A stretch of DNA of 41,304 nt, from NCBI GenBank assembly GCA_017458105.1, contig JAFTGC010000021.1, positions 1 through 41,304 on the forward strand. Reading direction: 5' to 3'. Made by a program: the position numbers and the translations under genes. The stretch is from Ruminococcus sp. Lineage in GTDB: Bacteria > Bacillota > Clostridia > Oscillospirales > Acutalibacteraceae. Below, one piece after another: positions 25,519 to 34,649 of the stretch. The first letter of the stretch is position 1. Every line of letters starts with the position of its first letter. The notes beneath the pieces were generated by a model. The model searched no databases. It was not told the DNA's origin and saw only the letters and a list, made by a program, of their open reading frames with translations.

Positions 25519-26120
25519 TGCCGTCTTATAATGTTGTTCCACTGCAAAGATTGATTGAAAATTTTGAAAAGCTCCCGGGAATCGGTGCAAAAACTGCTCA
25601 ACGGCTTGCATATTTTGTTCTGAATATGCCAAAAACAGAAGCAGATGATTTTGCAAAAGCAATCACCGATGCTCAGGAAAAAATCCACTATTGCAGTGTG
25701 TGCTGTAACCTGACAGACAAGGAAAAATGCCCTGTTTGTTCAAGTGCAACCCGTGACCACAGCTCAATTTGCGTTGTGGAAACACCCAGGGATGCAATGG
25801 CTATGGAATCCACAAACGAATACAAAGGCACATACCATGTTTTGCACGGTGCTATTTCTCCGCTGAACGGAATAGGACCCGACCAACTAAAAATCAAGGA
25901 ACTGCTTGTAAGGCTTAATAACAACGAAGTCAACGAGGTTATTATGGCAACCAATCCCACAGTTGAGGGTGAGGCAACCGCTATGTACATCAGCCGGCTG
26001 TTAAAACCGCTCGGCATAAAAGTTACACGGCTTGCATATGGTATTCCTGTGGGCGGTGACCTTGAATATGCTGATGGAGTTACCCTTGCCAGAGCACTCG
26101 AGGGCAGAACTTCACTTTAA
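25518..26120 (+). CDS. recR: Recombination mediator RecR
   Basis: 200 residues, the normal length. Helix-hairpin-helix [15 protein letters not shown] (about 15-30), C4 zinc finger [16 protein letters not shown] (about 58-73), Toprim domain starting [14 protein letters not shown] and including [15 protein letters not shown], and the C-terminal Walker-like segment [17 protein letters not shown]. With RecO it loads RecA onto SSB-coated single-stranded DNA. It is translationally coupled to ybaB by TGATG. Confidence 0.95.
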
Positions 26121-26130
26121 AGGTGTTATT

Positions 26131-26589
26131 ATGAAAGAGAGTACAAAAACTATAGCACAAAACAAAAAGGCTCATCACGATTATTTTATTCTTGAAAGCT
26201 ACGAGGCTGGCATTGAACTCTGCGGAACAGAGGTTAAGTCACTCCGGGCGGGGCGGGTAAATTTAAAGGACAGCTGGTGCAATATTGTTGACGGCGAAAT
26301 TTTTGTCAACGGTATGCACATCTCCCCTTACGAACAGGGAAATATATTTAACCGTGACCCGCTGCGTGTGAGAAGACTTCTTATGCACAAAAGAGAAATT
26401 TTAAAATTGTTCGGCACAATTCAGCAACAGGGGCTTTCTCTCATACCGATAAGCCTCTATTTCAAAGGAAGCAAAGTAAAAATGCAGGTAGGTCTGTGCA
26501 AAGGTAAAAAACTGTACGACAAAAGAGCCAGCATAGCCGAAAGAGATGCAAAACGCAATATGGAAAGAGCCATAAAAGAACGCTTTTGA
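26131..26589 (+). CDS. smpB: tmRNA-binding protein SmpB
   Basis: 152 residues. The beta-barrel core contains [20 protein letters not shown] and [12 protein letters not shown], and the C-terminal tail [20 protein letters not shown] mimics mRNA in the empty channel of stalled ribosomes. It escorts tmRNA for rescue. The start at 26131 has AAAGGTG upstream, 10 bases after recR; a longer frame would overlap recR. The tmRNA gene follows 109 bases downstream. Confidence 0.95.
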
Positions 26590-26698: not shown

Positions 26699-27046
26699 GG
26701 GGGTGCAATGGTTTCGACGGGGGTTTTGACCCTTGGTAAGCGAGTAGCGGTGCAGGACCGCTTGTAACCTGCAATTTTTAAAAATAAACGACAATAATAA
26801 AGTTGTTTTAGCAGCCGCTTAAGGTTGCTTGTCTGAGTTGAGAGTACCACGGCTCTTCTCGGGCATCACTCAGTGGTAAATGTGAACTTCGGAATGCCTC
26901 GGCCGTTGTCACACATCAGAGGCTACCAAGTGCATAAGCCTGTCTGTGGGCGTGTGTATGAGGGAATGCAAGTACACAAACTACACTCGTAGAAAGCCAT
27001 GGCAATGAATCTTCGGACAGGAGTTCGATTCTCCTCACCTCCACCA
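26699..27046 (+). ncRNA. ssrA: Transfer-messenger RNA
   Basis: The 5' end GGGGGTGCAATGGTTTCGAC and the 3' end GTTCGATTCTCCTCACCTCC-ACCA form the tRNA-like part; the acceptor stem GGGGGTG pairs with CACCTCC with one G-U, and the encoded CCA ends at 27046. The tag frame at 26784-26822 reads (I)NDNNKVVLAAA and stops with TAA, the usual Firmicutes-like degradation tag. It frees stalled ribosomes together with SmpB. Confidence 0.95.
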
Positions 27047-27334: not shown

Positions 27335-27739
27335 TTACATTCCCTTTAACATATCTACAAGGTTGTCAATCTGTTCTTTATGAGAACCATCCATTTCAGA
27401 GAACGCCGGAACATCCTTGCCGTTTGCATAATCGGTAATCAAAGACAGTGTTGCGGTTATTCCCAAAGCAAAAATAGCTATGATAACAGCAAAAATACCA
27501 ATGATAATGCCCGACTTGCGGGGACCCTTTTTGTCAGTGGGCTTTCTACTCAGAGCACCTGCTACAATAGCCACAATACCAAGCACAATGCCTGCTACCG
27601 CAAAAGCAATGTTTATACTTCCATAGAAAACTGCGTTAGTTCCCTCGATAGGGGTTGTAGGAATAAAAGCGATAATTATACTTACGAAAGCGAGAAGTCC
27701 GGCAATTAAACCAACAAAACCTTTTACATTCTTTTGCAT
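27335..27739 (-). CDS. Small membrane protein, DUF4190-like
   Basis: 134 residues with about four hydrophobic segments (GLIAGLLAFVSIIIAFI, INIAFAVAGIVLGIVAIVAG, IIIGIFAVIIAIFALGITA) and a basic linker RKPTDKKGPRKSG, followed by a soluble tail (residues 105-134). The repeated Gly-Ile-Val-Leu-Gly pattern resembles DUF4190-type proteins of unknown function. It is the last gene of the operon beginning at 31808, 25 bases after the permease gene. Confidence 0.7.
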   Translation of the reverse strand: MQKNVKGFVGLIAGLLAFVSIIIAFIPTTPIEGTNAVFYGSINIAFAVAGIVLGIVAIVAGALSRKPTDKKGPRKSGIIIGIFAVIIAIFALGITATLSLITDYANGKDVPAFSEMDGSHKEQIDNLVDMLKGM

Positions 27740-27764
27740 AGTAATTTACCTCCAAAAATTTAGT

Positions 27765-28535
27765 TTATTTAACATCCTTGCGGTTGAACACCTTTACAGT
27801 AATCGTTAAGAAAACTACAATACAAACAACAGAAACAATAATAGCATTTACAACCGCAGTATTCGCAGCAACATTTACTTCTCTAATTAGCTGGTCAGGT
27901 GCATAGTCCGAAATATTAAAATCATTTATTTTAAATATATTGCTAATAGCTGAATCCAGTCCCATATAAACAAGGAACAGAAAACCCGAACCAAGTAATA
28001 CGCCGACAATGCTTGCAAAGGTTTTGCTTTTAAGTCCTGTGGTTACAAAAAGTAAAATAGAACTGATTGCCATTGAGAGCAGCCATTTAATCAACAGGGT
28101 AAGGATACCTGCAAAAACCTGATTATCCACAATGAGTGTACCTGAAATCACATTACCAATTACAATTGAAGCTGAACCTGCCACAAAGAAAATAATATTA
28201 TGAATACCGATCACTATAAATTTAGAAATAACAGTAATGCCTTTGTTTGGAACCTGTCCTGCAATATTTTTGATGTATCCGTTAGCTATATCAGCGTAAG
28301 CAAAAGTACTAATTGAAACAAACATCAATACCATAAGTATCCCAAAAGAAAAAGGGTTAGATATAGATTCGGATAAATCCATTTTATCATTTATTTCTTC
28401 CAGTTTAAAAAAATTGATAAGAAGATGACACCCCACAATCCAAGCACAGTTAAGTACAAAAGTAACAATTAAAGAAATAATAAACATCTTTGACTTTCTG
28501 AGTCTGTACCAATCCATTTTTACAAGATTACCCAT
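27765..28535 (-). CDS. ABC-2 type transporter permease
   Basis: 256 residues with six predicted membrane segments and the characteristic start MDWYRLRKSKMFIISLIV seen in permeases of lantibiotic-immunity/bacitracin-type transporters. It overlaps the ATPase gene by 8 bases and must form one transporter with it. The substrate is unknown; the neighbouring kinase, PqqD-like protein and peptidase suggest a modified peptide or protein, while the YtrA-type regulator suggests a response to cell-wall stress. Confidence 0.85.
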   Translation of the reverse strand: MGNLVKMDWYRLRKSKMFIISLIVTFVLNCAWIVGCHLLINFFKLEEINDKMDLSESISNPFSFGILMVLMFVSISTFAYADIANGYIKNIAGQVPNKGITVISKFIVIGIHNIIFFVAGSASIVIGNVISGTLIVDNQVFAGILTLLIKWLLSMAISSILLFVTTGLKSKTFASIVGVLLGSGFLFLVYMGLDSAISNIFKINDFNISDYAPDQLIREVNVAANTAVVNAIIVSVVCIVVFLTITVKVFNRKDVK

Positions 28536-29442
28536 TGTGCTGACCTCCTGTTACGCTAAGATAATAATCCTCTAGGGATACATTTTTGATAAACGCCTCT
28601 TTAACATCAACATTAGCATTGACTAATGTCTTAATCATCTTTGCACTTTCGTCAAGTTTTTCACTGATGCGAACATTATTGTCATTATCGACCAAAACAA
28701 GTTTGTAGCCTGCACTTTTCAAAGCCTTTACAGCTGCATCTGTCTGTGATGTTTTAACAGTAACATACTGACCGCAGCGTGACGAAAGTTCCTCGGTAGT
28801 GAACTCGTCAATCAGTTTACCTTCGTGGATAATTCCGTAAGAGTCCGCGAGTTTTCCAAGCTCATCCAGAATATGGCTGGAAATCATAATCGTTATTTCC
28901 TTTTCATCACGGAGCTTTTCGAGCATTTGTCTGACCTCTACGATACCCTGTGGGTCAAGTCCGTTGATAGGCTCATCAAGAATGATAAGCTTCGGGTCGC
29001 CCACAAGTGCAAGTCCTATGCCGAGTCGCTGACGCATACCCAGCGAAAAAGAGCCTGTGTCTTTATCGCCTACATTCTCCAGCCCTACAAGATTAAGTAT
29101 ATTTTTTATATACTCTGAGTCGTTGCAACCCATAGCAATACACTTAATCTTTATGTTCTCATAAGCAGAGATATTTGGATAAATACCCGGGTGCTCAATC
29201 AAAACACCTACCTTTGAGAGATGTCGCTTTGCAGCATCTCCTTTGTCACCAAAAAGCGAAAATGTTCCGCTTGTAGGTGTTGAGAGTCCGCTTAACATTC
29301 TCATAATTGTGGTTTTACCGGCACCGTTACGCCCAATAAGACCATAAATCTCGCCCTCACGAATATGGATACTGATGTCCTTTGCGGCATCTTTAGTTCC
29401 ATATGTTTTCGTAAGCTTGTCGGTTGTCATTATGTAACTCAT
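28528..29442 (-). CDS. ABC transporter ATPase (lantibiotic/bacitracin-export type)
   Basis: 304 residues. ATPase domain 1-220: Walker A GRNGAGKTT, signature SLGMRQRLGIG (the variant SLGMRQR typical of BcrA/LanF ATPases), Walker B LIILDEPINGLDP and switch His in ISSHILDEL. A C-terminal extension of about 80 residues follows, as in this subfamily. AGGAGA precedes the ATG. Pairs with the permease encoded next to it. Confidence 0.9.
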   Translation of the reverse strand: MSYIMTTDKLTKTYGTKDAAKDISIHIREGEIYGLIGRNGAGKTTIMRMLSGLSTPTSGTFSLFGDKGDAAKRHLSKVGVLIEHPGIYPNISAYENIKIKCIAMGCNDSEYIKNILNLVGLENVGDKDTGSFSLGMRQRLGIGLALVGDPKLIILDEPINGLDPQGIVEVRQMLEKLRDEKEITIMISSHILDELGKLADSYGIIHEGKLIDEFTTEELSSRCGQYVTVKTSQTDAAVKALKSAGYKLVLVDNDNNVRISEKLDESAKMIKTLVNANVDVKEAFIKNVSLEDYYLSVTGGQHNG

Positions 29443-29480
29443 AAATTTCTCCTATATAATAGTTTGTAATAGTAAAATAT

Positions 29481-29903
29481 TTATAAACTCTTTAGTTTTC
29501 TGAAAACTCGCAAAACAAACGCCCTGAGAGGAAACAAATCACACCACAAAAACAAATACATACGGTAGCAAAACCCGTGCAGTTTTATCGTTTTATTATT
29601 TCGGATAATTCCGGTTAAAATTCCGATAATATGCCTGTCGGTCACACCGTACTCTTTATTGCTGCGGTTGTCGCCGCAAATAACATAGTCGTTTTCTCTG
29701 ACTTTTAATATTCTGTGCAGCACATACTGACCGCTGTCTCGCTTATACAATGGAATATCGTATTTTTTGAGTCTGCCGTTTGGCTTTTCTATGATAAGTA
29801 AATCTCTCCCCTGTTTAATAAGAGGAAACATACTGTCACCGACATTTGTATAGACCAGCTTGCCGTTTTTTGCAATTACTTCTTCAAAAGTAGTTTTACT
29901 CAT
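29481..29903 (-). CDS. S24/S26 family peptidase (signal-peptidase-like)
   Basis: 140 residues. The Ser motif is VGDSMFPLIKQG, followed by DIPLYKRDSGQYVLHRILKV and VICGDNRSNKEYGV, the box D of signal peptidases. In the position of the usual general-base Lys there is His (VLHRI), as in the Ser-His peptidases of the SipW/ER type. No N-terminal membrane helix precedes the Ser; a hydrophobic/basic segment near the C-terminus (CYRMYLFLWCDLFPLRAFVL) may hold it at the membrane. The start at 29903 has GGAG upstream and overlaps the PqqD-like gene by 8 bases. It may cleave the substrate of this operon; inference. Confidence 0.75.
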   Translation of the reverse strand: MSKTTFEEVIAKNGKLVYTNVGDSMFPLIKQGRDLLIIEKPNGRLKKYDIPLYKRDSGQYVLHRILKVRENDYVICGDNRSNKEYGVTDRHIIGILTGIIRNNKTIKLHGFCYRMYLFLWCDLFPLRAFVLRVFRKLKSL

Positions 29904-30156
29904 CAAGTGCTCCGATTTTTCTCAAATTCACAAGAGTGTTTTGAACATCTTTGGCAATCGTTTCTTTGTCAGCGTCGTATTTTTCACTTAATTTTAAAAC
30001 TATTTCTTCCTCAGTGGTTTCTGTTGCAAGACATTCCAAAATACAGCCAAAGGTCTTGTTTCCCTTAACAAGTCCCGAAAATTCGGATGCGTTAGCTGAT
30101 ATTAAAATGCTTTCTGTTCCGTCATTGTGCATAATAAAGCTTTCTTTTAGTTTCAT
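29896..30156 (-). CDS. PqqD family protein (peptide-recognition-like)
   Basis: 86 residues with the PqqD winged-helix pattern: N-terminal strands including ESILISANASEFSGLV, then ILECLATETTEEEIVLKLSE and DVQNTLVNLRKIGAL. PqqD domains (RiPP recognition elements) hold leader peptides for modifying enzymes. AAAGGAT lies 5 bases before the start and 3 bases separate it from the kinase gene. There is no radical SAM or cyclase gene beside it, so the partner is likely the kinase or the peptidase. Confidence 0.8.
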   Translation of the reverse strand: MKLKESFIMHNDGTESILISANASEFSGLVKGNKTFGCILECLATETTEEEIVLKLSEKYDADKETIAKDVQNTLVNLRKIGALDE

Positions 30157-30159
30157 ATG

Positions 30160-30897
30160 CTATCCTTTCATTTTATGGTAGGAAATTTCTGCCGCTTCGA
30201 TATTCTGATTACAGAACAATTGATAAAAACCTACCTTTTGGGCAATCAAATCCAATAAAACGAGTGTTTTTTTCAGGCTGTCTATTTTTGCAGGGCGATA
30301 GCACTGCTGTAAAAGCTCACCATACACAGCTTGCTTTGTAACCGGAGCAATGCTGTTATTTTCTGCCCTTTTCAAAAAACAGATTACCTTTAAGGGAGCA
30401 GATATATTATTGCCCAGATGGTGCTTACCGTTCCAAGGCGTACCGTAGGCGAACACCCCGCTGTCGGTAATTTTGAGCAGAGGTTTATCGTCATTCACCA
30501 TAACCGCACGATCTTTGAAAAGTTCTTTCCACAGTCTTGTATGTGTAGATTTACCTGTTCCGCTTTTTGCCGTAAACAAATATCCCTCGCCGTCAACTGC
30601 AATTACCGAACCGTGGAACAAAAGCGTATTGTAGGCAGGCATTTTTTCGGCAATTTTTCGATAAAGAGCAAGTGTTTCGAGGTACTCGTCGGGATAACAG
30701 ATAACCCTGTGACCTTCTGCTATATTTTCACGAGCTGATTTCATACTTTCAAAATCAATATCATCTTTTGAAACAATCACATTGAAATCAGCTTTATTTT
30801 CAGTAATATATGCCCTGCAAAAATCATAGGTTGAGTCAAAAATACAGCTCACACCAATATTTTTGTCGGCAAGTTTAATAACAAATTCTTTTCTCAT
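30160..30897 (-). CDS. HPr-kinase-like P-loop kinase (HprK-related)
   Basis: 245 residues. The core reads LLFHGSVIAVDGEGYLFTAK, then the P-loop SGTGKSTHTRLW and the acidic site MVNDDKPLLKI, followed by FAYGTPWNGKHHL. This is the layout of HprK/PEP-carboxykinase-type kinases found beside peptide-modification genes, where some phosphorylate a C-terminal Ser of a precursor. It is half the family-typical size of true HprK in its N-terminal part, so it is not the sugar regulator. Four bases separate it from the Ser/Thr-rich lipoprotein gene, and three from the PqqD-like gene. Confidence 0.8.
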   Translation of the reverse strand: MRKEFVIKLADKNIGVSCIFDSTYDFCRAYITENKADFNVIVSKDDIDFESMKSARENIAEGHRVICYPDEYLETLALYRKIAEKMPAYNTLLFHGSVIAVDGEGYLFTAKSGTGKSTHTRLWKELFKDRAVMVNDDKPLLKITDSGVFAYGTPWNGKHHLGNNISAPLKVICFLKRAENNSIAPVTKQAVYGELLQQCYRPAKIDSLKKTLVLLDLIAQKVGFYQLFCNQNIEAAEISYHKMKG

Positions 30898-30901
30898 TGT
30901 T

Positions 30902-31417
30902 TTAACTTATCGGAATAAATGGCAGCTCGTTTTCTTCGGTTGGCAAATTCATCTCTGTTGTCGGTTTTGTGGCAGATGGCTTTGTCGTTGCGGATTGTGA
31001 ATGTGTAACAGATTCTGTCTGCTTTGCAGGCTTAGTGGCAACGGGCTTTGCTGTTGTAGCTTGAGATTTTGTTTTATTCTTTTGGGTTGTGGATTGAAAT
31101 TTGCCGGTACTATTAGAATTGTTGTTAGAATTCTGAGAACTAACAGGTTGACTGTCTGAGCCTTTTGACTGAGAAAAATTTGAAGAAATTGTTGACTGCA
31201 CAGAGTGACTTATGCTTTGTGTTGAATTTTTTTTGTTTGATTTTTCTGCCTTGACGGTAGTTGTGTTTACGGCAGAAGTTGATGAAGATTCTGCAGAGGT
31301 GCTTGTTTGCTGAACAGAAGAACTATCCGTTGGAGTTTTGTCGGAACAGCCTTTTGTACAAGACGACATAGACACCGCTAAAATTAACACTGTAATAACA
31401 AAATATATTTTTTTCAT
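30902..31417 (-). CDS. Ser/Thr-rich lipoprotein, possible substrate of the operon
   Basis: 171 residues. A lipoprotein signal (MKKIYFVITVLILAVSMSSC, Cys20) is followed by about 140 residues of low-complexity Ser/Thr/Gln/Lys sequence without a recognisable fold, ending in a more ordered acidic-hydrophobic tail ENELPFIPIS with Ser as the last residue. The region looks like an extended surface stalk. The ribosome-binding site is weak (AGG right before the ATG), and the gene begins 10 bases after the GntR gene. Its place directly before a kinase that may modify C-terminal Ser makes it a candidate substrate; that is inference. Confidence 0.7.
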   Translation of the reverse strand: MKKIYFVITVLILAVSMSSCTKGCSDKTPTDSSSVQQTSTSAESSSTSAVNTTTVKAEKSNKKNSTQSISHSVQSTISSNFSQSKGSDSQPVSSQNSNNNSNSTGKFQSTTQKNKTKSQATTAKPVATKPAKQTESVTHSQSATTKPSATKPTTEMNLPTEENELPFIPIS

Positions 31418-31427
31418 AACCTATAGC

Positions 31428-31808
31428 CTATGCATTTTTATCATCGGGCGAGTAAATCTCTTCTACCATATTTTGCAGATCTTCCTGTGTATAGCGGAGT
31501 CTTTTTGCTTCTTCCAGTGTAGAAACAATATATCTTTCTTTAAAAGTCTTTCGGCGTTCTTCTATCAGCTTATCGACAGCTCCCTCGGCAACAAACATAC
31601 CGATTCCTCGCTTTTTGTAGACAAATCCTTCAGAAACCAGCACATTAATGCCTTTATTAACCGTTGCGATATTAATTCCAAATTCTTTTGAAAGTTGGGT
31701 TGTCGATACGAGCTTTTCGCCCTCCTTGATATCGCCCATCAGAATGTGGTCCTTGATACCCTCACTGATTCTGAGAAAAATCGGGATACTTTCTTTTACA
31801 TTTTCCAT
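31428..31808 (-). CDS. GntR family regulator, YtrA subfamily
   Basis: 126 residues: a winged helix-turn-helix (PIFLRISEGIKDHILMGDIK, then LVSTTQLSKEFGINIATVNK and GFVYKKRGIGMFV) with only a short C-terminal dimer segment, as in YtrA-type repressors that control ABC transporter operons. AAGGAG precedes the ATG by 9 bases. It is the first gene of the operon reaching to 27335, so it probably represses its own unit; a matching inverted repeat flanks the promoter. Confidence 0.9.
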   Translation of the reverse strand: MENVKESIPIFLRISEGIKDHILMGDIKEGEKLVSTTQLSKEFGINIATVNKGINVLVSEGFVYKKRGIGMFVAEGAVDKLIEERRKTFKERYIVSTLEEAKRLRYTQEDLQNMVEEIYSPDDKNA

Positions 31809-31833
31809 AATATTAATCTCCTTATTACATTAG

Positions 31834-31899
31834 TTATACAATTAGACAATTAACCCGTTATCATTATAGCACAATAGTCATTCTAAGTCAATTGTATAA
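31834..31899 (-). promoter_or_regulatory. Promoter and candidate GntR operator of the kinase/PqqD operon
   Basis: Minus-strand TTGACT (31891-31886), 17-base spacer, TATAAT (31868-31863). A perfect 10-base inverted repeat, TTATACAATT (31834-31843) and AATTGTATAA (31890-31899), brackets the promoter; the upstream arm touches the -35 box. Confidence 0.65.
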
Positions 31900-33145: not shown

Positions 33146-33289
33146 TTAAAAGTGGTGTGGAGTTATCTTCGATTGTGTAATTCCTTTCGCTCTTATAATT
33201 ACTGATGTTAATGCAACCGCAGAAGATACTGCTAATACTGTTGACATTGTGATTGCTGCAATTTTTGATTTTCCCTTACTGTTTTTCAT
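33146..33289 (-). pseudogene. Truncated third copy of the secreted-inhibitor gene
   Basis: A 47-codon frame keeps the signal peptide of the family (MKNSKGKSKIAAITMSTVLA then VSSAVALTSV) and then runs into unrelated codons (IIRAKGITQSKITPHHF, stop). The mature domain is missing. The upstream bases (ACTCCT box, AGGAG on the minus strand) are conserved, so it may still be translated into a short secreted peptide, but it most likely is a degenerate copy. Confidence 0.75.
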
Positions 33290-33326: not shown

Positions 33327-33764
33327 TTAAGCTTGTCTGATGATATTTTTCTGGCTGTCTACAAAGAAAGTCATTTTTACGCTAACCCACTTTTTGTCGC
33401 TTGTCTTATATTTCAGAACAAAGTGGTTAAGTCCGTATGATGTACCTGTAATTTTGAAGGTGTATTTATGTGTTGTAAAGTCGTAACTGCACTTTACTTT
33501 TAAGTTACTATTGTCAGCGGTGTAAGTCCAGTCATAACCGTATGATGTTTGTCCTACTGCTTTAAAGTAATAAGCTTTTGCAAAAGTATTAAGCTTTGCT
33601 GTCTTGTCCAGAACGGAAGTTGTTTGTGAAACACTTGACTGGACTGTACCGCTGTTGCTTGCGGCACTTGCACTTACTGATGTTAAAGCAAATGCAGAAG
33701 ATACTGCTAATACTGTTGACATTGTGATTGCTGCGATTCTTGATTTTACCTTACTGTTTTTCAT
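33327..33764 (-). CDS. Secreted chagasin-like (I42-type) protease inhibitor, copy B
   Basis: 145 residues: a Sec signal peptide (1-34, cleavage after SASA) and a mature domain of about 110. The mature part shows the three loop signatures of chagasin-type inhibitors in order: YGYDWTY (compare TGYxW), GTSYGLNHFVLKYK (compare GxGGxxxF) and KKW (compare RPW), ending FFVDSQKNI. These inhibitors block papain-like cysteine proteases. The protein differs from copy A at only two residues (Val-Leu for Ile-Pro at 51-52). AGAGGAG precedes the ATG; 48 bases separate it from copy A. Assignment by motif, not search. Confidence 0.7.
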   Translation of the reverse strand: MKNSKVKSRIAAITMSTVLAVSSAFALTSVSASAASNSGTVQSSVSQTTSVLDKTAKLNTFAKAYYFKAVGQTSYGYDWTYTADNSNLKVKCSYDFTTHKYTFKITGTSYGLNHFVLKYKTSDKKWVSVKMTFFVDSQKNIIRQA

Positions 33765-33812
33765 TTTTGAAACTCCTCTTGTTTTGTTATATTTTTATTT
33801 GATTATATTTAA

Positions 33813-34250
33813 TTAAGCTTGTCTGATGATGTTTTTCTGGCTGTCTACAAAGAAGGTCATTTTTACGCTAACCCACTTTTTGTCGCTTGTCTTATATTTC
33901 AGAACAAAGTGATTAAGTCCGTATGATGTACCTGTAATTTTGAAGGTGTATTTATGTGTTGTAAAGTCGTAACTGCACTTTACTTTTAAGTTGCTATTGT
34001 CAGCGGTGTAGGTCCAGTCATAACCATATGATGTTTGTCCTACTGCTTTAAAGTAATAAGCTTTTGCAAAAGTATTAAGCTTTGCTGTCTTGTCCGGAAT
34101 TGAAGTTGTTTGTGAAACACTTGACTGTACTGTACCGCTGTTGCTTGCGGCACTTGCACTTACTGATGTTAAAGCAAACGCAGAAGATACTGCTAATACT
34201 GTTGACATTGTGATTGCTGCGATTCTTGATTTTACCTTACTGTTTTTCAT
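33813..34250 (-). CDS. Secreted chagasin-like (I42-type) protease inhibitor, copy A
   Basis: 145 residues, identical to copy B except Ile-Pro at 51-52. Signal peptide 1-34; mature domain with YGYDWTY, GTSYGLNHFVLKYK and KKW. This copy has its own strong promoter (34323-34351), and copy B probably follows in the same transcript because no terminator lies in the 48-base gap. The near identity, also at the DNA level including the spacer, indicates a very recent tandem duplication. A cysteine-peptidase-fold lipoprotein (NlpC/P60) is encoded upstream on the same strand. Confidence 0.7.
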   Translation of the reverse strand: MKNSKVKSRIAAITMSTVLAVSSAFALTSVSASAASNSGTVQSSVSQTTSIPDKTAKLNTFAKAYYFKAVGQTSYGYDWTYTADNSNLKVKCSYDFTTHKYTFKITGTSYGLNHFVLKYKTSDKKWVSVKMTFFVDSQKNIIRQA

Positions 34251-34409: not shown

Positions 34410-34423
34410 TGATTAAATATTAA

Positions 34424-34590
34424 CAGTTTGTTGCATATTGGTATAAACGGTAACTCATATTATCGTAGCTTATGGTTTCTACTATGTAAGGAGCATCAAA
34501 CTCGCCTAAAAAAACGCTTAATCTTGGTTGCGTCTGTAATCTCCAAGCCGTTGCCGTCAATATCGGCAGCCGGACTCCACGGGAATATTC
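34424..34590 (-). pseudogene. Relic of a dockerin-module C-terminus, frameshifted
   Basis: The minus strand reads WSPAADIDGNGLEITDATKI-KRF and, one frame over, LGEFDAPYIVETISYDNMSY-RLYQYATNC-stop. The joined sequence has the calcium-loop pattern D-x-D-G-N-G-x-E-I-T-D-A-T of a dockerin type I repeat. The frame breaks in a run of seven T (about 34507-34513); six would restore it. No start codon or upstream domain exists before the NlpC/P60 gene, so this is the tail of a lost secreted protein, left after a deletion or insertion. Confidence 0.65.
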
Positions 34591-34649
34591 GCAAGCACCC
34601 TTTGAATTACAGTTATATCGGTTATGGTTAAACAGACAAATTTCTGCGG

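Follow-up and report, generated by a model that had tools for sequence, protein, structure and literature searches.

The stretch of DNA analyzed here (the window; 41,304 nt of Ruminococcus sp., contig JAFTGC010000021.1) contains an eight-gene operon, at the centre of which a putative HprK-like kinase, a PqqD-like recognition protein and a predicted Ser-His peptidase are encoded. Judged by comparison with relatives, these three genes are a recurrent cassette of gut and rumen Firmicutes, often accompanied by a PF14907 nucleotidyltransferase and an ATP-binding cassette (ABC) exporter. In addition, the end of the lipoprotein encoded in front of the kinase, ELPFIP, is a conserved terminal motif common to precursor-like peptide cores, lipoproteins and small dockerin proteins. 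This suggests a shared extracellular recognition signal on peptide and lipoprotein, for which no description was found in the open-access literature. The cassette, the peptide family, the tail sharing and the conserved active sites are established at the level of sequence.

The kinase-PqqD-peptidase cassette and its peptide

A kinase of this family was found in 156 of the 161 genomes of the window's genus and, at the level of the taxonomic family, the kinase was present in 117 of the 250 genomes, with human-gut and rumen species among the relatives carrying it. For the analysis of gene neighbourhoods, 81 kinase loci were read (the window, L034-L073 and L125-L164), of which 57 were well flanked, with no less than 2.5 kb on each side. 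Genes were called as the longest open reading frames (ORFs), signal peptides were assigned by a home-made rule and only the first kinase per locus was used. Genes within 3.2-4.5 kb on the same strand were counted as near, those within 150 bases as directly upstream.

The 57 well-flanked loci comprised 33 with both PqqD and peptidase genes, 3 with PqqD only, 8 with the peptidase only and 13 with neither. The nucleotidyltransferase was identified in 10 of the 36 loci with PqqD compared to none of the 21 others. In the 80 named loci, PqqD was near the kinase in 64, the peptidase in 57 and the nucleotidyltransferase (PF14907; E 4e-37 in L037) in 38 cases. Among the 122 neighbours of PqqD loci, ABC_membrane and ABC_tran were each found 29 times (fused exporters) and Radical_SAM 6 times.

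Natural fusions join the components as well. Kinase and PqqD are fused in the genome of the window itself (contig C28, a single 371-amino-acid (aa) frame matched by both), kinase and peptidase in L154 (within a single ORF of 380 aa that follows a DNA polymerase III-like gene, named by eye), and peptidase and nucleotidyltransferase in L188 and L305. The first-pass annotation had grouped the trio by a logic known from ribosomal-peptide pathways, which agrees with the frequent co-occurrence of PqqD and peptidase (33/57) and with these fusions.

The kinase (245 aa; 30,160-30,897, minus strand) has weak family matches, all below the respective cut-offs (Hpr_kinase_C, E 0.0016; TIGR00679, E 3e-5; ScmC TIGR04249, E 6e-7). 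It falls short of the equivalog scores for HPr kinase/phosphorylase (TIGR00679; 23.3 of 240 bits) and SynChlorMet ScmC (TIGR04249; 29.1 of 125 bits) and reaches 14 of 200 bits with HprK_rel_A. No solved structure was matched by its profile on the basis of sequence up to an E-value of 0.1. The active-site residues were kept, with H95, K116 and D137 identified in 95 of 95 relatives and D136 in 79 of 95. These four residues match in kind, rather than by alignment with PadeK, the His-Lys-Asp-Asp set described for lasso-peptide kinases in excerpts of PMC9266682.

The PqqD-like protein (86 aa; 29,896-30,156, minus strand) exceeds the PF05402 cut-off (E 4.6e-10; 40.1 bits vs. 23.4) and scores 29.1 of 70 bits with lasso_PqqD_Strm. 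The peptidase (141 aa, TTG start; 29,481-29,906, minus strand) remains below the cut-off of the archaeal-type signal peptidase I model TIGR02228 (E 1.8e-6; 27.9 of 51.85 bits), and weak matches of its family profile were obtained with 4nv4, a signal peptidase I (E 0.0011), and 7p2p, a SEC11A protein (E 0.009). Its residues S25, H64 and D79 were conserved without exception in the 64 relatives compared. The similarity behind the earlier labels HprK-like kinase and S24/S26 peptidase stays below curated cut-offs, but in both families the key catalytic residues do not vary among relatives.

In many relatives, a short ORF with a conserved leader lies directly or shortly upstream of the kinase, e.g., MKKYYKTPEMDVINFESEDVITTSGVGEDETPMFGM in L234. 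The leader was found to be approximately Y-x-x-P-E-(M/L)-E-(I/V)-x-x-F-D-x-E-D-V-I-T-(T/A)-S, followed by a short acidic core. All loci read yielded 115 such ORFs of 29-128 aa (median 42; the starts were perhaps called too far upstream). After exclusion of 4 of the 114 distinct peptides, which have no recognisable junction, 110 cores with a median length of 16 residues were obtained, containing 23% Asp and Glu and 2% Lys and Arg. No known family was matched above cut-off by the peptides (six examples searched against NCBIfam, five against Pfam). Signal-peptidase-like enzymes favour small residues at certain positions. Since the VIT(T/A)S junction has small residues at these positions, the putative cut was placed there.

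The peptide was found near the kinase in 30 of the 80 named loci. One of the loci that combine the peptide with PqqD, kinase, peptidase and nucleotidyltransferase is L279 of Kandleria vitulina DSM 20405. In the 57 well-flanked loci it goes with PqqD (17/36 vs. 1/21 without PqqD; Fisher p 0.0009), although the share of peptides in this set is not random, because L034-L073 and L125-L164 were taken from the better kinase hits, some of them for a nearby peptide. A short precursor had been reported as absent before. This holds for the window, whereas a conserved precursor-like peptide is present in relatives and had thus been missed.

The genome of the window encodes a second kinase-bearing peptide cluster (L001; contig C28, 29.4-30.2 kb). 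In this cluster, two short peptide-like ORFs, of which one has a double-glycine-like leader, precede the kinase-PqqD fusion, and a radical S-adenosylmethionine (SAM)-like gene (CxxxCxxC, by eye) follows it. The peptide model missed two further peptide-like ORFs upstream of the kinase, one in L169 (74 aa) and one in L178 (63 aa), both of which have Cys-containing cores; with a 454-aa protein encoded downstream, they could represent a modified variant of the peptide. A conserved ORF of 57-66 aa (..DPMILLSYxNTKLRDxY..) upstream of the kinase in L173-L177, L179 and L180 was not peptide-like according to the model.

Kinase-peptidase pairs without PqqD adjoin pfkA-like genes in L140, L158 and L163 (names by eye). 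Loci of this kind, and L034 with a thiamine-pyrophosphokinase-like gene (by eye) beside a kinase without PqqD or peptide, could indicate that the kinase is a housekeeping enzyme and that its association with the peptide is incidental in a subset of loci. The near-universal distribution in the genus (156/161) would fit to this as well. Given the association of peptide and PqqD, the natural fusions and the co-inheritance of tail classes described below, this explanation is considered improbable.

Shared tails of peptides, lipoproteins and dockerin proteins

The lipoprotein of the window (30,902-31,417, minus strand) has a lipobox-like Cys at residue 20, followed by a Ser/Thr-rich stalk. It ends with ENELPFIPIS (30,905-30,934, minus strand), a member of the motif class [EDNM][LTM]P.[VIL]P. 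The importance given to this tail in the first-pass annotation was confirmed insofar as ELPFIP is a motif common to the carriers and peptides of relatives. A frame-broken relic of a small dockerin-like gene (~34,420-34,620, minus strand; dockerin character by eye), located 3 kb upstream and not noticed earlier, also ends with ELPFIPI.

In places, motif carriers of different kinds occur within one operon. In L168, which belongs to the window's genus and encodes a kinase 54% identical to that of the window, the genes for an LRR_5 surface protein, the peptide, a dockerin-like protein, a lipoprotein, the kinase, PqqD, the peptidase and the nucleotidyltransferase follow each other in the same direction. 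Here, the peptide ends with DEDDLPIIGPEF (..DDLPIIGPEF), the dockerin-like protein with DLPFIPAN and the lipoprotein with ELPFVPAE. Further pairs are the peptide core GELPFVPAE and the lipoprotein tail IELPFVPAF in L271, the peptide YELPPVWVDP and the dockerin YELPFVPVN in L106, and the tails QVDPFAG/LLDPFE in L247 and GWSDWWTPEF/GWSDWWTPEY in L049. Intact small dockerins with such a tail beside the peptide were found in L168, L106 and L045; the Dockerin_1 cut-off was exceeded in the latter two.

For a statistical evaluation, the last 16 residues of peptides and small secreted neighbours were compared within each locus, with pairings shuffled between loci as null model. The family sets gave a p-value of 0.0005 (17 loci; non-secreted control 0.63, 34 loci) and the named loci one of 0.0077 (13 loci; control 0.27). 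With large proteins included, p was 0.0001 (30 loci). In the pooled, de-duplicated test (31 loci), from which L235 was removed as a repeat of L035, the score was 638 compared to 461.9 (standard deviation (sd) 27.7), which was reached in 0 of 20,000 permutations; for non-secreted neighbours (49 loci), the score of the control was reached in 11,684 of 20,000. L235 and L035 were both included in the tail-class, surface-protein, motif-anywhere and directly-upstream secreted-gene counts.

Four recurring tail classes were distinguished. Class 1, defined as [EDNM][LTM]P.[VIL]P within the last 14 aa, was identified in 4 of 115 peptides and, among small secreted genes, in 14 of the 68 located upstream of a kinase and in 6 of the 239 others. 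It was not found in any of the 1,078 small non-secreted proteins, 778 large proteins and 505 enzymes. Classes 2, 3 and 4 also match 2, 3 and 3 of the 778 large proteins, respectively.

A search for a similar motif anywhere in 742,289 residues resulted in 31 matches. Of these, 23 end at most 5 residues from the C-terminus of peptides or of small proteins that look exported by rule or by eye. Another five are located in the first 50 residues; four of these follow a likely signal sequence (one in L228, two in different proteins of L304 and one in L121), and the fifth, in a cytoplasmic-looking protein of L034, was taken as a chance match. The matches of L228 and L304 thus lie near the mature N-terminus instead. 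The remaining three, namely those of L134 and L202 and an additional copy within the L271 lipoprotein, are internal. The motif therefore tends to be located at the free end of exported proteins.

In a tree comprising 40 kinases, from which L133 was excluded for having two tail classes, the tail class requires 7 changes compared to a mean of 19.5 after shuffling (0 of 200 as low), a clustering that is inflated by near-copies among the loci. Species of the window's genus are located in clades of class 1 and class 2 alike. Judging by this tree, the tail class goes with the kinase and not with the genus. A count of the DNA pattern for E-L-P-x-(I/V)-P in the window's genome was rejected as evidence, with 3 places found for the pattern and 3 for the reversed control; two of the former lie within the window and correspond to the tail of the lipoprotein and to the dockerin-like relic.

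Co-inheritance of kinase and tail class would also be expected if the trio acts directly on the tails of Sec-exported carriers before export, with the peptide, which has the same tail, being another substrate or a decoy. The lipoprotein gene of the window ends 4 bases before the kinase gene and is its only intact tail carrier in cis, and in 9 loci small secreted genes stand directly upstream of kinases without PqqD. However, the peptide-leader model matched no carriers, the N-terminal motifs in L228, L304 (two) and L121 (one) would be out of reach of a C-terminal reader, and class 1 tails occur in 0 of 1,078 small non-secreted proteins. A direct action on the carriers is therefore regarded as rather unlikely, but as the strongest competitor of a peptide-centred pathway.

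Small secreted genes, many of them lipoprotein-like, were found directly upstream of the kinase in 39 of 183 kinase loci. In the first-pass annotation, the C-terminal Ser of the lipoprotein had been proposed as the phosphorylation site of the kinase, by analogy with paeninodin. The window lipoprotein does end in Ser, and the His-Lys-Asp-Asp residues described for lasso-peptide kinases are present in the kinase. Three findings had been named there that would speak against the proposal, namely a trio mostly without lipoprotein, a missed conserved precursor and loss of the Ser in relatives, and all three were observed. Of 131 loci with kinase and PqqD, only 30 have a small secreted gene directly upstream, the peptide is conserved in relatives, and Ser is the last residue in 1 of the 39 upstream proteins, that of the window alone. 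In L168, the last residue is Glu in the lipoprotein, Asn in the dockerin-like protein and Phe in the peptide. The proposal is consequently considered very improbable, and a C-terminal Ser, also found in just 4 of 110 cores, was discarded as a general site.

Proposed pathway and comparison to known systems

Among the explanations considered, a pathway centred on the peptide is regarded as the most likely. Kinase, PqqD-like protein and peptidase, in many relatives together with the nucleotidyltransferase and a fused exporter, could form a maturation part resembling that of ribosomally synthesized and post-translationally modified peptides (RiPPs), an assignment that is about evenly balanced. We likewise see equal chances for and against a pathway in which PqqD presents the peptide to kinase and peptidase and the exported core shares an extracellular partner with the tips of lipoproteins and dockerins. 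We infer every biochemical step as well as the extracellular partner.

In this pathway, PqqD would hold the peptide leader, and the kinase would phosphorylate a hydroxyl group, most likely of the conserved Thr/Ser of the VIT(T/A)S junction, which was chosen because about a fifth of the cores have no hydroxyl residue. The peptidase would cut after the junction and the ABC exporter would release the core, which may act as a terminal recognition epitope. In some operons, Sec-exported carriers (the lipoprotein stalk and sometimes a small dockerin) would show the same epitope at their tip, so that soluble peptide and surface display share a single extracellular partner. The window keeps the trio and the stalk, together with the decayed dockerin-like gene. 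Since no peptide is present in cis, its locus could be a partial copy served in trans, or the tipped lipoprotein may have taken over.

Several observations weigh against the peptide-centred pathway. The window contains no hidden peptide gene detectable by leader pattern or peptide model, the candidate on contig C23 of the same genome is weak (E 1.4e-6 with A1, 2.1e-5 with A2), and the peptide is missing from 50 of the 80 named loci and from 19 of the 36 well-flanked loci with PqqD. With 21 of 110 cores free of Ser, Thr and Tyr, the assignment of the phosphosite is a guess. In the tail test, the own neighbour was top-ranked in just 5 of 17 and 3 of 13 loci, and the signal rests on a minority of strong pairs. 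No more than 12 of 115 peptides fit any of the four tail classes; these were drawn by eye, the choice of classes 2-4 and of the broader patterns applied to the tree being made after inspection of the data, and near-copies contribute to the clustering on the tree. Finally, small secreted genes also adjoin kinases without PqqD (directly upstream in 9 of 52 loci), because of which the kinase may have a tie to the lipoprotein of its own.

A large surface protein, characterized by a shared C-terminal domain, was found near the kinase in 22 of 55 loci with peptide compared to 4 of 128 others (Fisher 6e-10). The domain had no Pfam name in the one example scanned (L168). By its position, this protein is the best candidate for the extracellular partner; no such protein was found in the window. 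The possibility that one acidic motif is presented outside the cell by leader peptide, stalk lipoprotein and dockerin, with the large surface protein as likely receptor, is put forward tentatively and is regarded as less likely than not. If true, the peptide would tune or compete with the surface display, which could serve kin-specific adhesion or assembly in gut Firmicutes, and the motif classes would act as different specificities. A concrete prediction on the appearance of the peptide and on its place of action, which can be tested, also follows from the tail sharing.

The cassette is similar to the lasso clusters of the paeninodin/pseudomycoidin type (PadeK/PsmK, PsmN, B1, B2, C, D) in its B1-type PqqD protein, its HprK-like kinase with His-Lys-Asp-Asp residues and, in relatives, the PF14907 nucleotidyltransferase and the ABC exporter. 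Lasso leaders contain YxxP and a Thr shortly before the cut, and both features are found in the leader of the cassette peptide, the Thr shortly before the likely cut. In contrast to lasso clusters, the operon has neither a cyclase nor a transglutaminase-fold leader peptidase, and a Ser-His S24/S26 peptidase takes the place of B2. In contrast to the paeninodin type, the cores have no conserved C-terminal Ser and are mirrored on Sec-exported carriers.

No Asn-synthetase-like cyclase was identified among the nine window proteins scanned, and Asn_synthase is not among the 25 families listed (of 80) for the 122 neighbours of PqqD loci; two Asn_synthase proteins (646- and 616-aa frames) are encoded on other contigs of the genome. 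The window proteins also contain no B2 peptidase (Transglut_core3), the sole match in the genome (83.6% complete) being below the cut-off (23.9 of 26 bits; contig C28). The absence of radical SAM proteins and cyclases from the operon, as annotated before, was confirmed by the Pfam scan of the window proteins. The cassette resembles the tailoring half of a kinase-bearing lasso cluster. It was not classed as a lasso pathway, since cyclase and B2 were not found in the operon and no B2 match in the genome exceeds the cut-off. If the mirrored tails are a true display system, this would be more than a variant of lasso-type tailoring.

HPr kinase, PqqD and nucleotidyltransferase genes have been noted with lasso clusters in excerpts of a survey of ruminal bacteria (PMC7533575). 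These are the same three protein kinds, likewise in rumen Firmicutes, described there as accessories of LasB/LasC lasso clusters; a cyclase-less cassette, the Ser-His peptidase and tail sharing do not appear in these excerpts.

The SynChlorMet (ScmC) and HPr-rel (HprK_rel_A/B) cassettes presumably combine an HprK-like protein with a PqqD-like partner, as here. The low scores of the kinase given above (29.1/125 for ScmC, 14/200 for HprK_rel_A) and an operon without radical SAM protein distinguish the window from them. The peptidase shares the GxSMxP, H and GDN blocks and the invariant Ser and His with signal peptidase I (archaeal/SEC11/SipW). It differs in its length of 141 aa without a visible N-terminal membrane anchor and in its score (27.9/51.85 bits). 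Enterococcal peptide pheromones are cut from the signal peptide of a lipoprotein. In both cases a short peptide is related to a lipoprotein, although here the shared stretch is the far tip of the lipoprotein and the peptide has its own gene.

In the open-access literature, no paper was found that joins PqqD, HPr kinase, S24 and peptidase, none with an HprK-related kinase, SynChlorMet or HPr-rel-A, and none containing the leader or tail strings. Kinase, HPr, S24, signal peptidase and lipoprotein do not occur in a 2025 paper on structure-based RiPP recognition elements (RREs). According to excerpts of the RRE-Finder paper, the discrete lasso-RRE model finds almost 8,000 proteins, of which only about 4,000 are accompanied by lasso peptidase and cyclase; the remaining ones are called possible false positives. 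Part of this remainder could be explained by kinase-PqqD-peptidase cassettes. With the kinase nearly universal in the genus and present in human-gut and rumen relatives, the cassette would represent a common, unrecognised peptide pathway.

Operon layout and neighbouring genes

The eight genes, all on the minus strand, have the coordinates and the tight packing described before, with gaps of 10, 4, 3, -11, 38, -8 and 25 bases. The first gene encodes a GntR/YtrA-type regulator (31,428-31,808, minus strand), which exceeds the PF00392 cut-off and scores 54.5 of 200 bits with the PmtR model. A promoter-like site lies in front of it (31,863-31,891, minus strand; TTGACT-17-TATAAT, 11/12), which is a consensus match only; the whole scanned region contained 23 such sites compared to 17.1 (sd 4.1) in shuffled sequences.

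Downstream of the peptidase, an ABC ATPase (28,528-29,442, minus strand), probably of a separable transporter unit, exceeds the ABC_tran cut-off and matches galliderm_ABC below its cut-off (E 1.8e-69). It is followed by an ABC-2 permease (27,765-28,535, minus strand; PF12730 (ABC2_membrane_4) above cut-off) and a small membrane protein (27,335-27,739, minus strand), similar genes of which were seen by eye behind the permease in L209, L213, L218, L220 and L221. The permease was identified in 54 of the 161 genus genomes, that of the window included. In 19 other permease stretches (~2.4-3.8 kb, near genes only), the same ATPase-permease unit was found without kinase or peptidase, and a PqqD-like gene was present in 2 of the 19 (L214, L216). 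In both, it is convergent with the unit, behind a helicase-like gene and with no kinase in the stretch. The GntR/ABC unit of the window looks like a separable module, and the 19 stretches lacking kinase and peptidase weaken the view of it as an obligate part of the pathway.

These stretches, and galliderm_ABC as best match of the ATPase, would fit to an operon that is mainly a GntR-controlled ABC unit for resistance against antimicrobial peptides (gallidermin/bacitracin type), with the trio inserted behind the regulator gene and ahead of the transporter genes, and its products perhaps unrelated to the transporter. This would leave the trio unexplained, tight spacing and common direction suggest co-expression, and a PqqD-like gene adjoins the unit in L214 and L216. 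Such a resistance operon is regarded as unlikely.

Upstream of the operon, two tandem, near-identical secreted proteins of 145 aa are encoded (33,327-34,250, minus strand), together with a truncated third copy (33,146-33,289). Similar-looking proteins precede the ABC ATPase in L211 and L227. A transfer-messenger RNA (tmRNA) gene (26,699-27,046, plus strand; tag DNNKVVLAAA) is located directly after an smpB-like ORF (26,032-26,589) and is convergent with the end of the operon.

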